In this document: positions 7,388-18,885 of the stretch, in pieces
Position numbering within the stretch: the first letter of the stretch is position 1
Layout: every line of letters begins with the position of its first letter
Assembly: GCF_900167335.1 (NCBI RefSeq)
Contig: NZ_FUXI01000016.1
Location: 20,361-67,191, forward strand
Length of the DNA stretch: 46,831 nucleotides
Source: Pilibacter termitis
GTDB taxonomy: Bacteria > Bacillota > Bacilli > Lactobacillales > Streptococcaceae
Reading direction: 5' to 3'
Program-made: the position numbers and the translations under genes
Notes under the pieces: generated by a model
Told to the model about the DNA's origin: nothing
The model's input: the letters and a program-made list of their open reading frames with translations, nothing else
Databases searched by the model: none

Positions 7388-9787
7388 TTACTTCATCGCC
7401 ACAATTCCCCAAATGTCTTCAGCATACCGTTTCACCGTATGATCACTTGAAAATCGTCCGCCGTTGGCTGTGTTGATTAAGCTCATTTTATTCCATTTTG
7501 CTTTATCTTGGTAGAGAAGATCAATTTTTTCTTGTGCCTCGATATAACTATGGAAGTCAGCTAGAGTGAAATATTCGTCATTGTACTTAATTAATGCATC
7601 AAATAATTCTTGCCCTTCGCGTACAATATTTGGAATGGTGCCGTCTACAAATGTATTCAACACACGCTTGAGCGTTAGGTCAGAATTGTAGACTTCATAG
7701 GCATTATAATTTTGTTCACGATAATATTGATAAACTCTGTCCTTATCCATTCCGAAAATCACTATATTTTCCTCACCTACGGCATCTTTAATTTCAATAT
7801 TTGCTCCGTCAAGTGTAGCAACAGTAATAGCTCCATTCAACATGAGTTTCATGTTGCTTGTACCACTTGCCTCTTTCGATGCAAGCGAAATTTGCTCAGA
7901 AACATCTGCTGCTGGTACGATTATTTCTGCAAGAGAAACATTATAGTTTGGTAAAAAGACAACTTTTAGCTTGTCTTGGATTTTTTTATCGTTGTTGATG
8001 AGGTTTGCGACCTCGTTGATTACTTTGATTACTGCTTTTGCATAGTAATAACTTGGAGCAGCCTTGGCACCAAAGATAAACACGCGAGGGGGGATTTCCA
8101 ACTCTGGATTTTGTTTCAAATCAAGATAGAGTTTCATGATGTGAAGCAATTTCAACTGTTGACGTTTGTAGGCGTGAAGTCGTTTGACTTGCACATCAAA
8201 AATAGCATTCGTTGAAACTTTTACACCTGTCGTCTTGAAAATGTAATCTGCAAGACGTTGTTTATTAAGTTTTTTCGCCTGTGCAAGTTTTTCCTGCACG
8301 TTTTTATCGTCCTTATACGCCATTAATAACTCTATTTTTTCTGCATCACTTCGCCAAGATTCACCAATCGTTTCGTCTAGCACTTGACTTAATGGTTCAT
8401 TGGAAATTTGCGACCAACGACGTAGAGCGATTCCGTTTGTTTTGTTATTAAATCTTTCTGGATAAAGCACGTAGAAATCATGCAAAACCACGTCTTTAAG
8501 CAAATCTGAATGAATTTTTGCCACACCATTCGTTGAATGTGAACCAATAATCGCAAGGTGTGCCATGTGGACTTGACCGTCACGAAGGATGCGTGTTCGC
8601 TCAACCAAATCACCGTCAAATTTCGTTGACATTTCCGTTACAAAACGGTGGTCAATTTCCTCAATAATCTGGTAAACACGTGGAATGAGTTGTTTTACCA
8701 TGTCTACTGGCCATTTTTCGAGTGCCTCGCTCATAATCGTGTGGTTGGTGTAGCTCATTGTGCGAACTGTCGCAAGCCATGCTTGAGACCATTCCATTCC
8801 TTCTTCGTCGACCAAAATACGCATAAACTCTGCAACCGCAAGGGAAGGATGTGTGTCATTGATATGCACGGCAATTTTTTCATGAATTGTTTCAATCGGC
8901 AAATTCAATTTCTTAAATCGTTTAACAATCGTCTGAAGTCCTGCTGAGGTGAAGAAATACTCTTGAATTAAACGTAATCTTCGTCCTTCGTAGGTAGAAT
9001 CATCTGGGTAGAGAACACCTGTAATATCTTGGATTTGACGACGTTCATTGATTGAATAATATTTGCGTTCTTCACTTTCTGGAATTTCAATATCCCACAA
9101 ACGAAGATTGTTTACTTGTTCGTTACGGAAACCAACCATTGCTGTATCATACGGCACCGCACGAAGAATCCGTGGATTTTCATAAACAGGAATAAGTCTA
9201 CCTGTCTGCTTGTCCTCTTTCAACCAAACATGACCTTCAAAACAAACATCTACTTTCTCATGGTCTTTGCGTACTTCCCAAATGTTTCCTGTCGTAAGCC
9301 ACGCATCCGGCAATTCTACTTGATAGCCGTCAATAAATTCTTGTTTGAACAAACCATATTTATAGCGAATCCCGTTGCCAAACCCGGGAAGTCCTGTGGA
9401 AGCCAGCGAGTCCATGAAACAACTTGCCAAACGTCCAAGTCCTCCATTTCCAAGTGCCATATCCTTTTCTGCCTCAGCAATCTGCTCAAAATCAAGCCCC
9501 AATTCTTCTAAACCGTCACGTACAAGGTCTAAAATACCAAGATTTAGCAAATTACTTTTTAACATTTTCCCCGGCAAAAATTCAATAGAGAAGTAAAAAG
9601 CAATTTTTTGCTGATTTCTCTGTTGTTCCAGTCTATCCTCTCGCCAATCACCCGAAATATACGTTTTAATAAGAGAGCCGAGTGATTGGAAAAGCTCTAC
9701 ACTGTTTGCATCGCACGTTTCAATCGAAAATTTATGGTGCAAACGGTCTTTAAAATCTTTCTGAAATTGTTCTTTTGTTAGTTTCAT
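7388..9787 (-). CDS. glgP: Glycogen/maltodextrin phosphorylase
   Basis: 799 residues, GT35 family. It releases glucose-1-phosphate from the non-reducing ends of alpha-1,4-glucan using pyridoxal phosphate. The PLP motif EASGTSNMKLMLNG contains the Schiff-base lysine K647; the N-terminal FYFSIEFLPGKMLKSNLLNLGI and NGGLGRLASCFMDS blocks are intact. It is the last gene of the glg set; ATG at 9787 with AGGAGA upstream. It is probably co-transcribed with glgA 61 bp upstream. Confidence 0.96.
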   Translation of the reverse strand: MKLTKEQFQKDFKDRLHHKFSIETCDANSVELFQSLGSLIKTYISGDWREDRLEQQRNQQKIAFYFSIEFLPGKMLKSNLLNLGILDLVRDGLEELGLDFEQIAEAEKDMALGNGGLGRLASCFMDSLASTGLPGFGNGIRYKYGLFKQEFIDGYQVELPDAWLTTGNIWEVRKDHEKVDVCFEGHVWLKEDKQTGRLIPVYENPRILRAVPYDTAMVGFRNEQVNNLRLWDIEIPESEERKYYSINERRQIQDITGVLYPDDSTYEGRRLRLIQEYFFTSAGLQTIVKRFKKLNLPIETIHEKIAVHINDTHPSLAVAEFMRILVDEEGMEWSQAWLATVRTMSYTNHTIMSEALEKWPVDMVKQLIPRVYQIIEEIDHRFVTEMSTKFDGDLVERTRILRDGQVHMAHLAIIGSHSTNGVAKIHSDLLKDVVLHDFYVLYPERFNNKTNGIALRRWSQISNEPLSQVLDETIGESWRSDAEKIELLMAYKDDKNVQEKLAQAKKLNKQRLADYIFKTTGVKVSTNAIFDVQVKRLHAYKRQQLKLLHIMKLYLDLKQNPELEIPPRVFIFGAKAAPSYYYAKAVIKVINEVANLINNDKKIQDKLKVVFLPNYNVSLAEIIVPAADVSEQISLASKEASGTSNMKLMLNGAITVATLDGANIEIKDAVGEENIVIFGMDKDRVYQYYREQNYNAYEVYNSDLTLKRVLNTFVDGTIPNIVREGQELFDALIKYNDEYFTLADFHSYIEAQEKIDLLYQDKAKWNKMSLINTANGGRFSSDHTVKRYAEDIWGIVAMK

Positions 9788-9847: not shown

Positions 9848-11281
9848 TTAGCCCAAAAGTCCTCTATACAACTCAAGGTATTGTTCGCTTTGAGTATCCC
9901 ATGAAAAGTCACTGGTCATGGCATTTTTCTGCAATTTTGCCCAAGCGGTTTTCTGCTTAGCAAATACTTCAATCGCTTGCTCAATTGTCTCACGTAAGAC
10001 GAAACCTTGAAATTCTTGGAAACCAAAACCCGTGCCTTCATTCGTCATTTTGTTGAATGGTATCACGCTATCTTTTAAACCACCAATTTCATGAACAATA
10101 GGGAGTGTACCGTAACGCATTGCCATCATTTGCGAAAGCCCGCATGGTTCAAATGCACTTGGCATAAGGAAAAGATCAGCTCCTGCATAAAACATTTGAG
10201 CCATTTTAACATTGAATGAAATGCTGACCGAAATTTTTTCTGGATACCGTTGGGCAAAGTAACGGAAACCTTCTTCAAATTTCGTATCCCCTGTTCCTAA
10301 GAGCACTAATTGAACGTCTTGCTGTAAGAGTGAGTGCAACTCTTGTAAAACTAAATGAAACCCTTTTTGATAAGTCAAACGTGAAACCATGGCGATAAGT
10401 GGAACATTTTTTTTGACTGGCAAGCCCATCATTTTTTGAACTTCTGCTTTATTTTTTGCTTTTCCACTCAAATCATTCGCTGAAAAATGATGTTCAATCA
10501 TCGGATCAGCTTCTGGATTGTTAGAATCATAATCAATTCCATTTAAAATACCGCTTAGTTTTCCATTTTCCATGCGTAACACTTGATCTAATCCACTACC
10601 AAATTCTGCCGTTTGAATTTCATTCGCATAGCTTGGCGATACTGTATTAACTCTATCAGCATAGAGAATGCCCGCCTTTAGCATATTGAGGTTATTGTCC
10701 CAAACAACCGTTCCATCATCATAACGTTCAGCCCCCATACCATAAAGTTCCCAGAGAATTGATTTGTTATACATTCCTTGAAACTCTATATTGTGAATGG
10801 TAAGAACGGTGCGAATGTTGTTAAACGCTTGAATCCAACGATATTTTTCCTTTAGGAGAAAAGGGATAAAGGCAGTATGATAATCGTTCACATGGATTAA
10901 ATCTGGAATAAAATGCACTTTTTCCATCATTTCAATGATTGCCATTTGGAAAAATGCAAAGCGTTCGCCGTCATCATAATAGCCGTATAATCCGTCACGA
11001 TCAAAATAATACATATTGTCAATAAAATAATAATGCACACCGTTAAGTTTTAACTCTTTGACACCGCAATATTGTCTGCGATAGCCAACATAAACATCAA
11101 AGTGAAACAAATCAACGAGCTGATTTTTGTATTCTTCTTTCATTTTTGACCAAAGTGGCAATACGACACGCACGTCTTCGCCTTTTCGCACCAACTCTTT
11201 TGGTAAAGCACCTGCAACATCACCAAGACCTCCCGTCTTGAAAAATGGTGCAGCCTCACTTGCAGCAAATAAAATTCTCAT
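9848..11281 (-). CDS. glgA: Glycogen synthase (ADP-glucose starch/glycogen synthase)
   Basis: 477 residues, GT5 family. It transfers glucose from ADP-glucose to the growing alpha-1,4-glucan. The N-terminal ADP-glucose-binding KTGGLGDV is at residues 15-22, and the C-terminal [23 protein letters not shown] contains the conserved glutamate of retaining GT-B synthases. Start ATG at 11281 with AAGGAGG. A small hairpin lies between it and glgD upstream. Confidence 0.97.
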
Positions 11282-11410: not shown

Positions 11411-12568
11411 TTATTCTACAATCAGTGAATCTACAAGAGCAGAAACCACTGTACCTTTTGTGATCACGACTGGTTTTTCATTTGTTCCTCTAACAACGGC
11501 ACCTGATTCGATGATGACATTTTTGTCAATAATCGCATTTTCCACTATTGCATTTTCTTCAATTTTCACGCTTGGCATCAAGATACTGTTGGAAACTTTC
11601 GCTCCTTTTTTCACTCGGATATTCCGTGATAAAACAGAATTTTCCACGTCACCTTCAATGATTGAACCAGATCCAGATTGTGAATTTTTCACGTTCGAGC
11701 TACTTGCGTAATACGTTGGTGCTTCATTTTTCACTTTTGTATAGACTTTATTGCTTGAGAAGAATAAAGCGTTAAATGTTGCAGGGTCCAATAAATCCAT
11801 GTTGGCATTGTAATAAGAAGAAACATCAAAAATATTGGAGACATAGCCTGTATATTCATAGGCAAGTGTTTCTTCCGTTTGCAATTTTTCCGCCAGCCAA
11901 CTTTGCAAAGTCGGTGGCAAATTGGTTTTGTAAGCCTCACGAAGTGAAGAAATTAACCATTGTGTATCAATGATATAAATTCCCATGTTCAAGTTCACAC
12001 GCTCAGAGGTATCTATATCACGCTTAAAATTGTGAGCATTTTTGACATGGTTACTTTCATCAAGTTCTAAGACGATATTACTTCCGTTCAAATCCGCTGG
12101 GGCAAATTTTTTGTACGCTACGGTCAAATTTTTTCCGTTATTTTTATGCACTTGCAAAATTTGACGTAAGTCTACGTTTGCCAAAATATTGCTTGACATG
12201 AAAACCGTTTGGTCTGATTTTGATTTGACAAGATAGTCAATCATTGCAGCATAGTAGTTTTCACCTTTGCATTGCATTTCTTCTAGTTCTTCATAAAAGC
12301 CTAAGAAATAACGATTTAAAAGGGTATCTAGTCCCCACTCTTTTCCGCTACCGATATGGTCGAAAACAGAACGCATTTCATTATGCTTGAATACAGCATA
12401 AACACTTCTAATTCCTGCGTTGGCAACAGCAGAAAGTTGAAAGTCAATTAAGCGATATTTCCCACCAAATGGTAGAGTCGCAAGCGGACGATTTTCAACG
12501 AGACCGCCCAGACCATTTTTATAATCTGTAATATTCCCAACGATTGCACATACTTTATTACTCTTCAT
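11411..12568 (-). CDS. glgD: GlgD, non-catalytic partner of ADP-glucose pyrophosphorylase
   Basis: 385 residues, starting [12 protein letters not shown]. It is homologous to GlgC but lacks the nucleotide-binding GGQGTRL loop and the catalytic GDH motif; the equivalent positions read [11 protein letters not shown] and SSNILANVD. GlgD subunits in Bacilli pair with GlgC and raise its activity. The C-terminal left-handed beta-helix hexapeptides ([24 protein letters not shown]) are clear. ATG at 12568 is preferred to an in-frame TTG at 12583, because that TTG overlaps the SD GGAG. It overlaps glgC by 11 bp. Confidence 0.93.
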
Positions 12569-13700
12569 TACGTTCTTCTCCAATCACTTCAGAATATCCG
12601 ACAACTTGAATTTCTTCTGTTCCGTCAATTACCGCGTTGTCACCGATAACCGCATCTTCTCCAATAATCGCACGTTTAATCACGACATTTTTTCCGATTT
12701 TTGCACCTGTCATAACAAATGAATCTTCTACAACACTTCCTTCTTTGACTTGCACGTTGGTCGAAAGAATCGAATGGTTAACCTCACCTGCAACGAAACA
12801 GCCGTCCACCACAAGAGAATCGCACACACTGGCTTCTTCTGTAATAAAGTTGGGTGGTGATATTAAATTACGAGAAAATGTTCGCCAATTTCTATCACGA
12901 ATTTCTAGCTCGTTGTCAAGGTTGATAAATTCCATATTTGCCTCCCAGAGAGAGTCAATCGTTCCAACGTCTTTCCAATAACCATTAAAGCGATAAGAAT
13001 AAACATTTTCACCCGCCTCAAGATAGGCTGGAATGACATTGTTTCCAAAGTCGCTCATATCAACATCTTTTGAGTCTGCATTCACGAGCAATTCACGTAA
13101 TCTTTTCCAGTTGAAAATATAAATTCCCATTGAAGCATTGTTGGATTTCGGCATTTTTGGTTTTTCTTCAAACTCAATAATGCGACCATTTTCGTCTGTA
13201 TTCATGATACCAAAGCGACTTGCCTCCTCCATTGGTACAGGAATAACCGCCACTGAAAGCGAAGCGTGATTTTCAATGTGATTTTGGAGCATTTCATCAT
13301 AATCCATTTGATAAATGTGATCTCCTGAAAGGATTAACACGTGTTCTGGGTTAATGCTGTCAATGTAATCAATATTTTGGTAAATTGCGTGTGCTGTTCC
13401 TTCAAACCATTTGTTTCCTTCTTTTGCCGAATACGGCTGAAGAATCGTAACGCCTGTGTCTATACCGTCAAGACCCCAGCTTGAGCCATTTCCAATATGT
13501 GCATTAAGTGCGAGTGGCTCGTATTGTGTAACGACTCCAACGTTTCGGATTCCTGAGTTTGCACAATTTGAAAGTGCAAAATCAATAATGCGGTAGCGTC
13601 CGCCGAATTGTACCGCAGGTTTTGCAATGGATTTCGTCAGCTTTCCTAGCCTCGTTCCTTGCCCACCTGCTAAAATCATTGCTAACATATCTGTTTTCAT
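12558..13700 (-). CDS. glgC: Glucose-1-phosphate adenylyltransferase (ADP-glucose pyrophosphorylase)
   Basis: 380 residues from the ATG at 13700. It makes ADP-glucose from glucose-1-phosphate and ATP, the committed step of glycogen synthesis. Nucleotide loop [13 protein letters not shown], the catalytic-metal motif [10 protein letters not shown] and the sugar-phosphate loop EFEEKP are present; SGDHIY is followed by Q rather than the more common K. The C-terminal beta-helix matches the family. It is probably in a complex with GlgD, whose gene overlaps its end. The initiation region is unusual (separate entry). Confidence 0.95.
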
Positions 13701-13728
13701 CTGATTGGCGAAAAACGCCAACCCTCCC
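13701..13728 (-). promoter_or_regulatory. glgC initiation region: SD separated from ATG by a hairpin
   Basis: In sense direction AAGGGAGGG is followed by the hairpin TTGGCG-TTTTT-CGCCAA, then TCAG and the ATG. The linear SD-ATG distance is about 21 nt, too long; with the 17-nt hairpin folded it becomes about 4-5 nt, near optimal. The alternative in-frame TTG at 13721 touches the SD and is an unlikely start. Confidence 0.6.
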
Positions 13729-13741
13729 TTCTATATAAGAC

Positions 13742-13770
13742 CTCGATTGAATGAAGTTTTTCCAATCGAG
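13742..13770 (-). other. Hairpin in the glgB-glgC intergenic region
   Basis: Arms CTCGATTG (13742-13749) and CAATCGAG (13763-13770) with a 13-nt loop. No U tract follows on the minus strand, so an RNA-processing or stabilising hairpin is more likely than a terminator. The 149-bp glgB-glgC gap has no other clear feature. Confidence 0.5.
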
Positions 13771-13849
13771 TTTATGGGTTTTCTAAAAACGAACAAACCG
13801 TCTTTAGATCTCACCTTATCTTTATAGCATCTCTGCTAATAAATTCTTT

Positions 13850-15841
13850 CTACTCAAATGTTTGTTCAAGACTACCCTTGAGAGTTTCAACATATTGATT
13901 TGCTTTTTCTCTATCTTGTTTCATTTCTAGAACTTCTTCTGGTGGTTCGAGAAAAATTTTTTTCGGTCGAATGAGAATCGCCCCGAAAGCTGGTAGAGAA
14001 AGATGTAACTGAAACGGTAGCTCTTGAAATTCCCACGGAAGTGTGTGTAAATTTTCATTTCCACTCGTCCACGAGCCACCAAATTCTTTCATTTCTGAAT
14101 TAAGGATTTCCTCATATTCTCCCCAATGTGTCACACCAATATGAAATTCAGGGTGTTCTACTGGGGTCATATTTAAAATAACTAAAATAAAATCATCTGG
14201 CTTTTTGCCTTTTCGGATAAAGCTCAAAATGGATTGGTCACGGTTGTGATTGTCTACCATATCAAATCCGTCTAACGTGCCGTCTAATTCCCAAAGTGCA
14301 GGCGATTGAAGATAAAGTTGATTGAGCTGTTTGGTAAATTCTTGTAGCTCATTTGACTTTTTCTCCGTTAACGCCGACCAGTTCAAGCAATCTTCTTGCG
14401 GAATACTGGCAAATTCGACACCTGCCTCTTGCAAATTTTTGGCTGGATAGGCTTTATGAAAAACGAGGAAATTGCGGATTTGTGAAAATTTTTTCCAATC
14501 TTCCCTGCCCCAAATCGCCGTTGCGAGAGTTTTCCTCTCACCTTTTTCCTCGAAAACATTCATCAAAGGATTGACAAAACTCTCGTCATACATTTCTTCA
14601 AACAGTTCAACAAGTAAATTGAAATGATATTTTCGATAAATCGGGTCAATTTGGTAAAATTTCAAGAGATTTCTCGACCACTTTTGATTGATTTTTCCTG
14701 TAAAACCAAGTCCACCATGACTAAGAAGAGCGGTCGTTTTCATGCGAGCGGTAAGTTCGTCGCCAAACATTTCTACGTGTGGCGTGTGAAGTTTCAGCAT
14801 TTCATTGAGTTTGATTAGAAACTCCACTCCTTCAAAATTCTTTCTGCCTCCTTCATGATTGGGCGACCAAGGTCCTCCGTCCATATCTCGTGTAATCATT
14901 TTCGTCACAAACGGCAATCGCACACCGTCAAGATGAAACGTTTCTATCCAATACATCACACTGGAGAGAAGAAAACTTTGCACTGCACCTTTTCCTAAAT
15001 CAAAATTTTTCCGATTGTCCGAAAAAGCTCTCGCACGGTTTCTATCCAAGTATTCAAATTGAGGAGTGCCGTCATAGTAACTCAACGCACCACTTTCCAT
15101 TGAAAATTGGCTGATATTCATATCAACAAATACGCCAATCCCATTTAGATGACAACTTTCCACAAAATCTTGAAACTCTAAAATCGTTCCACTACTTTCC
15201 TCAAGTGCAAAAAATCCAAGCACACTCTCAGGCGATTCCGCTTGCTCATTGTATTCCATGAGCGACCGAAATAACACGTGTGTATAGTGCATTTCTTTCA
15301 AATAAGGAACAAGTTCTTCCTTTAACGTCTGAAACGTTGCATTCTTTCGCCATTCTTTGATGTTGAGATAGTAAATATTCATCGCTGAATGCCTTTTTTC
15401 CGCATATAAATTGAGGGATAAATAGTCCATATCCGTCCAATCTTTTTCTCGATTACAGCCAACAACACAAGCAAGACCGGGACTTTTCTCAAATCGAAGG
15501 GCGAAAGGGTCAATTTTCATCTCCTCTACACCGTTGACTTGACGAACTTTGAATTTGTAAAGTTCACCTTCTCTTGGCAAATCCGTCCAGACTTCCCAAA
15601 TACCAAATCCCTCTACACGTTGCATTGGAATTTCTTCTTCCCACCACTTTGTGAAATCACCTGCAAGATAGACTTGCTGAGCGTTCGGTGCCCACACTCG
15701 AAAAACGTAACCTTTTTTTCCATTTATTTGCTTTTCGTGATGAGCAAAGTATTTCCAACTATCGACACAATCTCCTTTGAAGAAATCAATCGCTCGTTGT
15801 CGTTCTTCATCTTCCAATGTTTCTATGTTATTTTTCTCCAT
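13850..15841 (-). CDS. glgB: GlgB-family protein lacking the catalytic residues (probable pseudo-branching enzyme)
   Basis: 663 residues. Fold: N-terminal CBM48 (YVFRVWAPNAQQVYLAGDFTKW, residues ~45-130), a GH13 barrel and the C-terminal beta domain of branching enzymes. Alignment with GlgB from memory of the family motifs shows the active site is gone. The nucleophile motif DGLRVDAV reads DGVRLPFV (nucleophile position = P310). AEEST reads GDELT (acid/base = D361). SHDEVVHGK reads MNVFEEKGE (His-Asp lost, N428/V429). The region-I histidine motif reads DMNISQF. The frame is intact over the full length with no stops, so it is not simple decay. ATG at 15841 is chosen for the SD GGAGGAGA. It is first gene of the glg unit. 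It may act as a glucan-binding or regulatory subunit; function unproven. Confidence 0.88.
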   Translation of the reverse strand: MEKNNIETLEDEERQRAIDFFKGDCVDSWKYFAHHEKQINGKKGYVFRVWAPNAQQVYLAGDFTKWWEEEIPMQRVEGFGIWEVWTDLPREGELYKFKVRQVNGVEEMKIDPFALRFEKSPGLACVVGCNREKDWTDMDYLSLNLYAEKRHSAMNIYYLNIKEWRKNATFQTLKEELVPYLKEMHYTHVLFRSLMEYNEQAESPESVLGFFALEESSGTILEFQDFVESCHLNGIGVFVDMNISQFSMESGALSYYDGTPQFEYLDRNRARAFSDNRKNFDLGKGAVQSFLLSSVMYWIETFHLDGVRLPFVTKMITRDMDGGPWSPNHEGGRKNFEGVEFLIKLNEMLKLHTPHVEMFGDELTARMKTTALLSHGGLGFTGKINQKWSRNLLKFYQIDPIYRKYHFNLLVELFEEMYDESFVNPLMNVFEEKGERKTLATAIWGREDWKKFSQIRNFLVFHKAYPAKNLQEAGVEFASIPQEDCLNWSALTEKKSNELQEFTKQLNQLYLQSPALWELDGTLDGFDMVDNHNRDQSILSFIRKGKKPDDFILVILNMTPVEHPEFHIGVTHWGEYEEILNSEMKEFGGSWTSGNENLHTLPWEFQELPFQLHLSLPAFGAILIRPKKIFLEPPEEVLEMKQDREKANQYVETLKGSLEQTFE

Positions 15842-15962
15842 TTCTCTCCTCCATTTCGTTTGATTTTTTAAATAAGGGTCTTTATGTTCTTTTTTAAAAT
15901 GAATACTCATAATAAACTTATGTAAATTCTTTCATAGAAACATTCAATATATTCTTATGTAC

Positions 15963-16001
15963 TGCTCTATATCTGACCCACTTTGATATATTTATGAGCA
16001 A
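15963..16001 (-). promoter_or_regulatory. Hairpin in the ~170-nt glg leader
   Basis: Within the leader the minus strand reads TGCTC...TATATC, an 11-nt loop AAAGTGGGTCA, then GATATA...GAGCA, giving an extended two-part stem. The rest of the leader is AT-rich. No match to a known riboswitch is recognised. Confidence 0.4.
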
Positions 16002-16021
16002 GTTATTAAAAATATACTTTT

Positions 16022-16050
16022 ATGATAACACATTATTAAATAGTTGTTAA
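16022..16050 (-). promoter_or_regulatory. glg operon promoter
   Basis: TTAACA (complement 16045-16050), 17-bp spacer, TATCAT (complement 16022-16027) on the minus strand; one mismatch to consensus in each hexamer. The predicted start near 16014 leaves about 170 nt of leader before glgB. Confidence 0.7.
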
Positions 16051-16163
16051 GACAAAAATACTCTTTTTTTTGAGAAATTTATTTTTTTTAAAGAAGTATG
16101 ATAACCACAAGCTATTACAAATGTTATACTTTATTTTTATCGTTTAGAGAAAAATGAAAAGAA

Positions 16164-16207
16164 AAAACACCTACGAGCTGTAAACGTTTCACAATCGTAG
16201 GTGTTTT
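16164..16207. terminator. Terminator downstream of alaS
   Basis: 13-bp arms AAAACACCTACGA (16164-16176) and TCGTAGGTGTTTT (16195-16207) with T runs on both strands. The loop contains TGTAAACGTTTCACA, which resembles a CcpA (cre) site but is one base too long for the consensus. Confidence 0.88.
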
Positions 16208-16239
16208 GTTATTTTTATAATGTTTTTTTCATCTAGTTT

Positions 16240-18885
16240 CTATTTCGTTTCAATCCATTTTTCAGCTTCAGAAAGTGCCTCTGGAATGCCCGCTGGATTT
16301 TTCCCGCCAGCTTGAGCCATATCCGCACGTCCACCGCCGCCACCGCCAACAAATGAGGCAATGTGCTTGATTAAATCTCCCGCTCGCAAGCCTTTTTCTT
16401 GAGCTTTTGCACTCATCGCAACAAGCAAACTCACTTTTCCGTCATTCGCTGTCGCCAACACTAAAACGTCTGAGAGTTCTTTTTGTTTCCACTGATCTTG
16501 CAGTGTACGAAGTTGATTCATATCTTTTACCGTCACTTGTGAGGCGATAATGCTTGTACCATTCACTTCTTTCACGTTTTGGAAAACACTTCCTGCTTGT
16601 TGATTGGCAAGTTTTGTAGCTAATTGCTCATTTTCTTTTTGCAATAAACGTAGTTGTTCTTGAAGTGCCACCACTTTCCCTTCTACTTCCTCAAGTCTTG
16701 GTGCTTTGACAGATTGTGCAATTTTTCGTAAAGCATTTTCGCTATCACGATATGCCGCATACGCCTCTTTACTTGTTACCGCCAAAATGCGACGTGTTCC
16801 TGAACCAATTCCTTCTTCTTTGACAATCTTGAACAGACCGATTTCAGAAGTGTTTTTCATATGTGTCCCACCACAAAGCTCGACAGAATAATCGCCAATT
16901 TGCACTACACGTACAAGTTTGCCGTATTTTTCACCGAAAAGTGCCATGGCACCCATTTTTTTCGCTGTATCAATATCCGTTTCTGTCGTGACAACTGGAA
17001 TTGCTTGCCAAATTTTTTCGTTGACTTCTTCTTCAATTTTCGCAAGTTCTTCTTGACTTACTTGTTCAAAATGTGTAAAGTCAAAACGCAAAAAGTCCGT
17101 TTCATTGAGAGAGCCTGCTTGAGTTGCGTGTTTTCCTAGCACATTGTGAAGTGCTGCGTGCAATAAATGCGTTGCTGTATGGTTTTTCATCACTTTATTG
17201 CGACGAACTTCATCAACTGCCAAGTGGTAAATTTCACCTTTTTTCAATTCGCCAACAATTTCTACCGTATGCAAAGGCTGTCCATTTGGTGCTTTTTGCA
17301 CATCTATTACATTGGCAATGAGTGTACCTTCAAGCGTTTGGATCACTCCATAATCTGCTACTTGACCACCCATTTCTGCATAAAATGGTGTCTTATCAAA
17401 AATAAGTTGAGCCATACCAGTTGAAAGCATCGCTTTATCTTCTTCACCTACAACAATCGCCTCAAGTTTTCCGTCAAGATTTGTGCGAGTGTAATCAAAC
17501 TCTGAAGAAACTTTGATACTCGTCAAAAGTTCCGATTGAACGCCCATAGAACCACCTTTGACAACAAATGAACGAGAAAGCTCTTGACGTTCTGTCATTG
17601 CCACCTTAAATCCTTCATGGTCGACTTTAAACCCTTCATCTTCTGCTAATTCCTCTGTCAACTCAAACGGGAAACCATACGTATCGTAAAGCGTGAAAAT
17701 ATCACGTCCGTCAACAGTATCTGCACCTGTTGCTTTCAATTTTTCAAGCAATTCATCCAACATTTTGCTCCCCGCATCAATCGTACGGTGGAAACTATCT
17801 TCTTCACGGCGAATTTGTTTGGCAATAAACTCTGCATTTTCCAAGACTTCTGGATAGTAACTCTGCATAATTTCACCAACAATTTGAACTAAATTGTATA
17901 AAAATGCCTCTTGAATCCCTAATTTTTTCCCGTGCATTACTGCTCGGCGTAGCAATCGACGTAAAACGTAGCCACGTCCTTCATTTCCGGGTAATGCTCC
18001 GTCACCAATCGCAAAGGTCAACGCACGCACGTGGTCTGCAATCACTTTGAAACTCATATTATTTAAAGAATTATGCACTTCATAAGTTTTTCCAGAAATT
18101 CTTTCCACCTCACGAATAATCGGCAAGAACAAATCTGTCTCAAAATTGGTCGGTGCATTTTGTATAATGGAAACCATTCGCTCAAGTCCCATGCCGGTAT
18201 CAATGTTTTTGTGTGGCAATTCAGGGTACTCGCTACGTGGAATACTTGGGTCTGCATTAAATTGCGAAAGCACGATATTCCAAACTTCGACATAACGGTC
18301 ATTTTCAATATCTTCCGCAAGCAAACGAAGTCCGATTTTTTCTGGGTCGAAATCTTCTCCTCTATCAAAGAAAATTTCCGTATCGGGTCCGCTTGGTCCT
18401 GCACCGATTTCCCAAAAATTATCCTCAATTGGAATCAAATGTTCTGCTGCAACTCCAAGAGAAATCCATTTGTTGTAAGTATCTTTGTCATCTGGATAAT
18501 ACGTCATATAGAGTTTTTCTACTGGAAAATCGAACCACTCTGGGCTTGTCAAAAGCTCAAATCCCCAAGTGATTGCCTCATCACGAAAATAATCCCCAAT
18601 TGAAAAATTCCCTAGCATTTCAAACATCGTATGGTGACGTGCTGTTTTTCCGACGTTTTCAATATCATTGGTACGCAAAGATTTTTGAGCGTTCGTGATA
18701 CGTGGATTATCTGGCACAACACTTCCGTCAAAGTATTTTTTGAGTGTTGCCACACCAGAATTTATCCATAAAAGTGTTGGATCGTTTACTGGCACTAAGC
18801 TCGCACTTGGTTCAATTGCGTGTCCTTTTGACTCAAAAAAGTCAAGGAACATTTTGCGGACTTCCGCACTTGTCATTTTTTTCAT
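16240..18885 (-). CDS. alaS: Alanine--tRNA ligase
   Basis: 881 residues, full length. Order: class II catalytic domain (residues ~1-240), tRNA-recognition region, editing domain with the zinc-site motifs [11 protein letters not shown] and [13 protein letters not shown], then the C-Ala domain ending in the glycine-rich [18 protein letters not shown]. It charges tRNA-Ala and hydrolyses mischarged Ser/Gly-tRNA-Ala. ATG at 18885 with AAAGGA upstream is preferred over an in-frame TTG at 18903. It has its own consensus promoter and a T-box leader, and ends at a strong terminator. Confidence 0.98.

Follow-up and report, generated by a model that had tools for sequence, protein, structure and literature searches.

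In Pilibacter termitis the glg operon begins with glgB, whose full-length product has the predicted fold of a GH13_9 branching enzyme and substitutions at all of its catalytic positions. We analysed it within a window of 46,831 nucleotides (the whole stretch of DNA studied here: contig NZ_FUXI01000016.1 of assembly GCF_900167335.1, positions 20,361 to 67,191, forward strand), where it stands as a retained pseudoenzyme that looks, judging from its residues, dead as a branching enzyme. The combination of a full-length dead protein, an intact branching enzyme elsewhere in the genome and a separate origin of dead copies in Ruminococcus suggests a second, non-catalytic job for this protein. We infer that it is kept as a glucan-binding adaptor or scaffold beside GlgC, GlgD and GlgA while branching is done by a second enzyme, a reading to which we assign a probability of about 0.5.

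Catalytic residues and predicted fold

In an alignment restricted to frames of at least 550 amino acids (98 live Lactobacillales GlgBs and three dead ones), 201 columns were at least 97% identical among the live proteins and are referred to here as live-invariant. The substitutions D310P, E361D, H428N, D429V and H245Q in the window GlgB each fall at such a column. Furthermore, the branching-enzyme motif WGYQ reads S-P-E-S (Y205E), and across five motifs the protein retains 9 of 27 live-invariant residues, with R308 and D305 of region II still present. The acid/base change is conservative in the window protein (Glu to Asp), and the same position holds Ser and Gln in its two dead relatives. A preliminary description of this DNA, made from the sequence alone, had claimed that all GH13 catalytic positions were lost, and that claim holds: its residue numbering was right, the codons were checked, and the columns concerned are invariant in the 98 live proteins.

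The GlgB domain order of a CBM48 N-domain, a barrel and an all-beta C domain is present in the window protein, as are Pfam matches to CBM_48 (7.3e-19) and Alpha-amylase_C (2.9e-15), while no match to Alpha-amylase was found at E <= 0.001. The protein shares its domain order, whole fold and position first in glgBCDAP with the GH13_9 GlgBs of Cyanothece (5GQU/5GR5), E. coli (1M7X) and M. tuberculosis (3K1D), but differs in having all catalytic and most motif residues replaced and in scoring below the NCBIfam equivalog cut-offs for GlgB (554.6 vs 577 bits for NF008967; 403.2 vs 463.95 for TIGR01515).

The AlphaFold model of the window GlgB had a mean predicted local distance difference test score (pLDDT) of 89 and a predicted template modelling score of 0.89, and it aligned with the Cyanothece branching enzyme (5gr5) over 612 residues at 1.7 Å (Z 45.0), which bears out the intact fold by prediction and superposition. 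In the model, P310 directly follows strand 306-309, D361 directly follows strand 357-360, and V429 lies inside strand 429-432. Since these three positions sit at or in the expected strands, the alignment extends over 612 residues and the same-genus orthologue also has a Pro nucleophile, the loss is not an effect of chance or local misalignment. Replacement acids supplied from elsewhere in the chain appear unlikely given the colinear alignment and the relatives, an argument that uses strand positions and colinearity rather than model coordinates and so leaves room, geometrically, for such acids. We also considered whether the former groove had become acidic, with Glu at 11 of 69 lost barrel residues in the window protein, 11 of 71 in L008 and 5 of 65 in L011; this idea was dropped because the Glu gain was not clearly above what the overall Glu content of each protein would give (p = 0.12, 0.08 and 0.57).

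Relatives, selection and the second branching enzyme

Dead orthologues are found in the nearest genomes. The only other genome of the genus compared (G001, 59% complete) carries an orthologue 51% identical to the window GlgB, with a Pro nucleophile, Ser as acid/base and no SHDE, and another, in G007 (82% complete, from a neighbouring genus), has an Asn nucleophile and Gln as acid/base. P243I, H245Q, M443I and Q451K are common to these two and the window genome (G000). In a GlgC+GlgD+GlgA tree and a GlgB tree, both of them quick trees in which the dead rows form long branches, the live G010 falls outside (G007,(G000,G001)), with support of 95 and 100 for the three-genome group. Because both trees agree on this placement, one loss suffices: most simply, catalysis was lost once in the common ancestor of the genus and the neighbouring genus, and the dead protein was then kept through speciation. 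A search of 395 genomes of the order matched 233, and among the 30 loci read only the window copy was dead; the remainder were not read by residue, so this is no census. Among 27 pattern matches on viral contigs there was no relative of the dead protein.

The three dead genes remain open over 663 (G000), 665 (G001) and 634 (G007) amino acids without internal stop or frameshift, in two genera. Between G000 and G001, the proportion of nonsynonymous differences (pN) in glgB is 0.334 against a saturated synonymous proportion (pS) of 0.784, and pN of the neighbours is 0.083 for GlgC, 0.146 for GlgA and 0.125 for GlgP. With pN below even a saturated pS and above that of its neighbours, glgB is constrained, though less than they are.

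This constraint is uneven across domains. The window GlgB keeps 41 of 45 live-invariant residues in the CBM48 and C domains and 80 of 149 in the barrel (Fisher p = 2.6e-6), with a similar split in G001 (38/45 vs 76/149, p = 5e-5) and G007 (35/45 vs 84/149, p = 0.014). Its CBM48 is 0.60 identical to that of the live G010 GlgB, compared with 0.60-0.64 among live GlgBs, and its C domain 0.56, compared with 0.46-0.57, while its barrel reaches only 0.45 where live GlgBs share 0.72-0.78. The CBM48 is a putative glucan-binding domain. The scaffold described earlier as preserved is so in its predicted fold, that of the barrel included, and in most live-invariant residues of the CBM48 and C domains, while the barrel motifs have decayed. 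Together with the absence of stops in three genomes and the pN and pS values, the domain pattern supports the earlier suggestion that the protein is kept under selection for another job.

A second branching enzyme is encoded on another contig. A scan for the GH13 family (PF00128), made in G000, gave six matches above the Pfam cut-off, one of which (contig C51, 357-2318, minus strand) is a 653-residue eukaryote-type branching enzyme with human GBE1 (4bzy, E = 3.7e-194) as its best match among solved structures. Its D, E and D motifs (FDGFRFDG, IAEDMS and ESHDQ) are intact, and its match to eukaryotic enzymes points to membership of GH13_8. On the one visible side, its neighbours read from their sequences as an ABC transporter, phoU and pst genes, not glg genes, and it is 26% identical to the window GlgB over 376 residues. 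The genome search agreed with the preliminary description that the window gene is the only GH13_9 GlgB found in G000, and it likewise turned up no GH57 branching enzyme, the sole Pfam match being a weak one to a protein that reads by sequence as polysaccharide-deacetylase-like. The possibility that the genome has no other branching enzyme is ruled out by the enzyme on C51, and with it falls the mostly linear polymer that had been predicted for that case.

At E <= 1e-60, GH13_8 enzymes were present in 25 of 295 genomes of the family, all 25 with the D, E and D motifs. Four of the genomes whose operons were read (G002, G006, G008 and G016, of genera g2, g6 and g8) have glgC-glgD-glgA without glgB and a GH13_8 enzyme elsewhere (L207-L210, L219-L221); G010, the nearest relative, has both a live GlgB and GH13_8; and G003 (g3) and G009 (g9) have live glgB and no GH13_8 match. 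In several genera of the family, the bacterial branching enzyme has been replaced by the GH13_8 subfamily, which appears to have taken over branching, leaving glgB absent in some genera and a pseudoenzyme in the window genome. The operon tree gives a very divergent glgC-glgD-glgA-glgB operon in G058 (genus g5; L223 4244-10100) a branch length of 4.52, as though it had come from elsewhere, and some other g5 genomes score about as low.

A dead GlgB at the head of the operon has also arisen in Ruminococcus. We read the GlgB copies of 60 genomes one by one (59 had a match), and 15 of the 60 carry a GlgB with the nucleophile changed from Asp to Gly and the region-I His to Asn. The genes glgC, glgD and glgA lie directly downstream in 13 of these, and the contig breaks off at the gene in the remaining two. 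Each of the 15 genomes also encodes a second GlgB (in two pieces in G672) whose nucleophile, acid/base and SHDE are intact, and no glgC was found within the 2 to 7 kb downstream of it in the 13 that could be viewed, the contig ending there in G649 and G671. Two further genomes, reached by name, have a dead operon copy, one with an intact second copy and the other with only a C-terminal fragment of a second. In a FastTree phylogeny (rows of at least 470 amino acids, with every third of the other live rows), the dead copies form one clade with support of 100 among live operon copies.

For domain comparisons, we used 13 of the 15 dead copies (leaving out G649, cut by a contig end, and G672, in pieces), 67 live GlgBs of at least 600 amino acids and 11 live partners. 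Seven live-invariant columns are changed in all 13, the nucleophile and region-I His among them. Omega, the ratio of nonsynonymous to synonymous change, was calculated for 14 of the 15 dead copies and was 0.06-0.32, compared with 0.017-0.18 for the live partners (14 least saturated of 91 pairs); the dead clade is under purifying selection. The Gly nucleophile is reminiscent of engineered glycosynthases, and by this analogy the Ruminococcus proteins may have unusual residual chemistry. In one Clostridia genome (G679; L145 9920-11926), the operon GlgB, beside glgC, has an Asn nucleophile, Arg for the region-I His and SHEE, and an intact second GlgB lies elsewhere; the 29 other best matches read in the family of G679 were all intact. 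These cases amount to at least two independent losses with a similar arrangement, and probably three.

Gene start and glg operon

The window operon has five glg genes in the order glgB-glgC-glgD-glgA-glgP (Table 1). By eye, a strong ribosome-binding site (GGAGGAGAG) lies directly upstream of the ATG at 15841, while an in-frame ATG at 15910, 23 codons upstream of this likely start, has none and would give 686 residues. The protein is therefore taken to have 663 residues, uninterrupted by a stop, as described before; automatic annotation may pick the longer frame, with its extension over 15842-15910. The gap between glgB and glgC contains an inverted repeat at 13742-13770, CTCGATTG ... CAATCGAG, with no T-run (by eye, letters confirmed), which may act in RNA processing or attenuation; in G001, a repeated sequence appears by eye in its place. 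A scan of 13500-16300 gave promoter and terminator candidates not above those in shuffled sequence (9 vs 7.1 and 1 vs 2.0). The GTAHAI of the window GlgC, where the E. coli protein reads GTADA, raised the suspicion that another operon gene had lost its function, which was rejected when His proved normal there (27 of 28 compared GlgCs).

Table 1. Features of the window glg operon and related Ruminococcus loci (alignment counts are live-invariant residues retained)
Feature	Location	Strand	Basis
glgB, predicted non-catalytic GlgB (GH13_9 scaffold), 663 aa, gene 1 of glgBCDAP	13850..15841	-	profile searches, alignment, fold model
CBM48-containing part, residues 36-125, 21/22	15467..15736	-	Pfam, alignment
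Residue 205, branching-enzyme Tyr (WGYQ) to Glu	15227..15229	-	alignment, codons checked
Residue 245, region-I His to Gln (Gln in both dead relatives too)	15107..15109	-	alignment, codons checked
Residue 310, catalytic nucleophile Asp to Pro	14912..14914	-	alignment, model, codons checked
Residue 361, acid/base Glu to Asp	14759..14761	-	alignment, model, codons checked
Residues 428-429, SHDE His-Asp to Asn-Val	14555..14560	-	alignment, codons checked
C-terminal part with all-beta domain, residues 501-640, 20/23	13922..14341	-	Pfam, alignment
glgC, ADP-glucose pyrophosphorylase	12558..13721	-	above NCBIfam cut-off
glgD	11411..12583	-	above NCBIfam cut-off
glgA, glycogen synthase	9848..11281	-	above NCBIfam cut-off
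glgP, glycogen phosphorylase	7388..9787	-	above NCBIfam cut-off
Ruminococcus GlgBs with Gly nucleophile and Asn region-I residue	L222 5158-7143; L254, L256, L258, L260, L262, L264, L266, L269, L271, L273, L275, L277, L279, L283		

Candidate functions and their meaning

An adaptor or subunit role fits a protein in which catalysis is lost, the fold is kept, the glucan-binding and C-terminal domains are largely kept and the gene stays in its operon. Under this reading, a GH13_9 branching enzyme would have lost catalysis, once, in the ancestor of the genus and the neighbouring genus, a loss that may have become possible once a second enzyme did the branching; in the window genome, that enzyme is most likely the intact GH13_8 on the other contig. 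The dead GlgB would then have been kept as gene 1 of the operon for a job needing its CBM48 and C-terminal domain and not its active site, most likely that of a glucan-binding adaptor or scaffold holding GlgA or the second branching enzyme on growing glycogen. As far as the sequence data go, glucan binding, scaffolding and regulation of GlgA are all candidate jobs, with GlgA and the second branching enzyme as putative partners.

Several known systems resemble this arrangement. ISA2 is a non-catalytic plant paralogue that binds ISA1 (PMC12510319), and GlgD is a regulatory subunit of GlgC (PMC10395257); both are related to an enzyme of the pathway and are retained alongside its active enzymes or in association with them. 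The parallel with GlgD drawn in the preliminary description, of a pathway-enzyme derivative conserved after losing catalysis, agrees with the sequence found here. Unlike ISA2 and GlgD, the window GlgB has a partner that is only proposed, and the active branching enzyme belongs to another subfamily and is encoded elsewhere. The plant proteins PTST1 and FLO6 contain a CBM48 and interact with GBSS or ISA1, PTST1 being non-catalytic and equipped with coiled coils (PMC6243121). The likeness lies in a CBM48 protein beside glucan-synthesis enzymes, whereas the window GlgB retains a barrel fold and has, in place of coiled coils, a single predicted C-terminal helix (635-662). PTST1 is not known to contain a barrel.

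The nearest published bacterial case found is the GlgA-GlgB fusion of Waddlia chondrophila, which has a branching domain without detected activity and a second enzyme, GlgB2, thought to do the branching (PMC7935935). Unlike in the window GlgB, that inactivity was blamed on the fusion and not on loss of catalytic residues, and the authors see pathway genes as possibly disappearing (PMC7935935). A review lists an inactive GH13 isoform in its table of archaea and describes the chlamydial fusion (PMC11046441), and nothing resembling the present case appears in the passages available from it. In the portions seen of the open-licence literature searched, we found no report of a GlgB without catalytic residues kept in a glg operon. 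Branching enzymes bind glucan at many places outside the active site, twelve of them in E. coli (PMC10254366; also PMC6243121), so a dead branching enzyme could still hold glycogen.

Several observations weigh against the adaptor reading. The proposed role is derived from which domains are conserved, and that pattern is weaker in the relatives: the G001 CBM48 is 0.48 identical to that of G010 and keeps 18 of 22 invariants, and the G007 C domain is 0.40 identical and keeps 14 of 23. The dead GlgB evolves fast (47% identity to G010, compared with 76-89% for GlgA, GlgP and GlgC), which, with the loss of glgB in related genera, would also fit a gene slowly on its way out. Searches of G001 and G007 down to E <= 0.001 gave no GH13_8 enzyme, only cross-matches to their GlgB or other GH13 proteins, in genomes that are incomplete as given above; the pairing in this lineage thus rests on G000, and the missing enzyme weighs against a strict pairing rule. 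Nor does a second branching enzyme suffice for the loss, since a further 15 genomes of Ruminococcus carry two copies of GlgB, none of them dead, and G010 has a live GlgB beside GH13_8. The Ruminococcus dead copies keep 85% of barrel invariants (94% in CBM48, 99% in the C domain), and acid/base and stabiliser are mostly present. Their mean identity to one another, compared with that of the live partners, is 0.56 vs 0.84 in CBM48, 0.72 vs 0.92 in the barrel and 0.65 vs 0.73 in the C domain; the larger drop in CBM48 than in the barrel indicates that CBM48 is not specially protected there. In G672 the assembly breaks the dead copy into two frames, which may be an assembly error.

Alternatively, glgB may be a decaying gene without function, its purpose lost to GH13_8, that is heading for deletion as in g2, g6 and g8 and survives because too little time has passed or because removing it would upset expression of the operon. 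The related-genus genomes without glgB and the split G672 copy are consistent with decay, as are the GlgB branches of the dead lineage, the longest besides that of G058, and a G000-G010 nonsynonymous divergence (dN) about six times that of GlgC (0.488 vs 0.083). We nonetheless consider it unlikely, given three full-length frames without internal stop in two genera, synonymous sites that are saturated while one third of nonsynonymous sites differ, CBM48 and C domains as close to live GlgB in the window protein as live ones are to each other, and the low omega of the Ruminococcus clade. Distinctly doubtful, too, is a heteromeric branching enzyme in which the dead GlgB is the inactive subunit and sets the chain-length choice or glycogen attachment of an active partner (GH13_8 in G000 and, in Ruminococcus, the second GlgB), by analogy with ISA2, a conserved non-catalytic paralogue, and ISA1. 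The dead protein does co-occur with an intact branching enzyme in G000, in G679 and in every one of the 15 Ruminococcus genomes, but the second enzyme of the window genome belongs to a different subfamily, so that ordinary homologous pairing is less likely, and GH13_8 was not found in the incomplete G001 and G007. It is highly improbable that the protein is still an enzyme, perhaps a glucan hydrolase or transferase, with chemistry changed through D361 or other acids. An acid does remain at position 361, R308 and D305 are kept, and G001 and G007, lacking a GH13_8 match, would need another branching enzyme; set against this, the chain has lost its nucleophile, its stabiliser Asp, the branching Tyr and the two conserved His, few motif invariants are left, and the acid at 361 is replaced by Ser in one relative and Gln in the other.

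The adaptor reading can be extended, at rather less than even odds, to the glgB product of Firmicute glg operons in general, live GlgBs included, which may have an old catalysis-free function as a subunit that assembles or targets a GlgC/GlgD/GlgA glycogen-synthesis complex. This function would become visible where GH13_8 (in the Streptococcaceae-like family) or a GH13_9 paralogue (in Ruminococcus and G679) takes over branching, since the active site can then be lost while the protein stays beside glgC.

Non-catalytic or regulatory paralogues are already known in this pathway, GlgD for its first enzyme and ISA2 for debranching in plants, and recurrence in other Firmicutes raises the present case above a single odd gene. 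For annotation, the lesson is that a glgB next to glgC is not necessarily the branching enzyme, and metabolic models that count the operon glgB as such would miss the real one. The recurrent dead copies beside glgC, with an intact enzyme elsewhere, are natural separation-of-function mutants, and they make it testable whether branching enzymes double as glucan-binding assembly factors.

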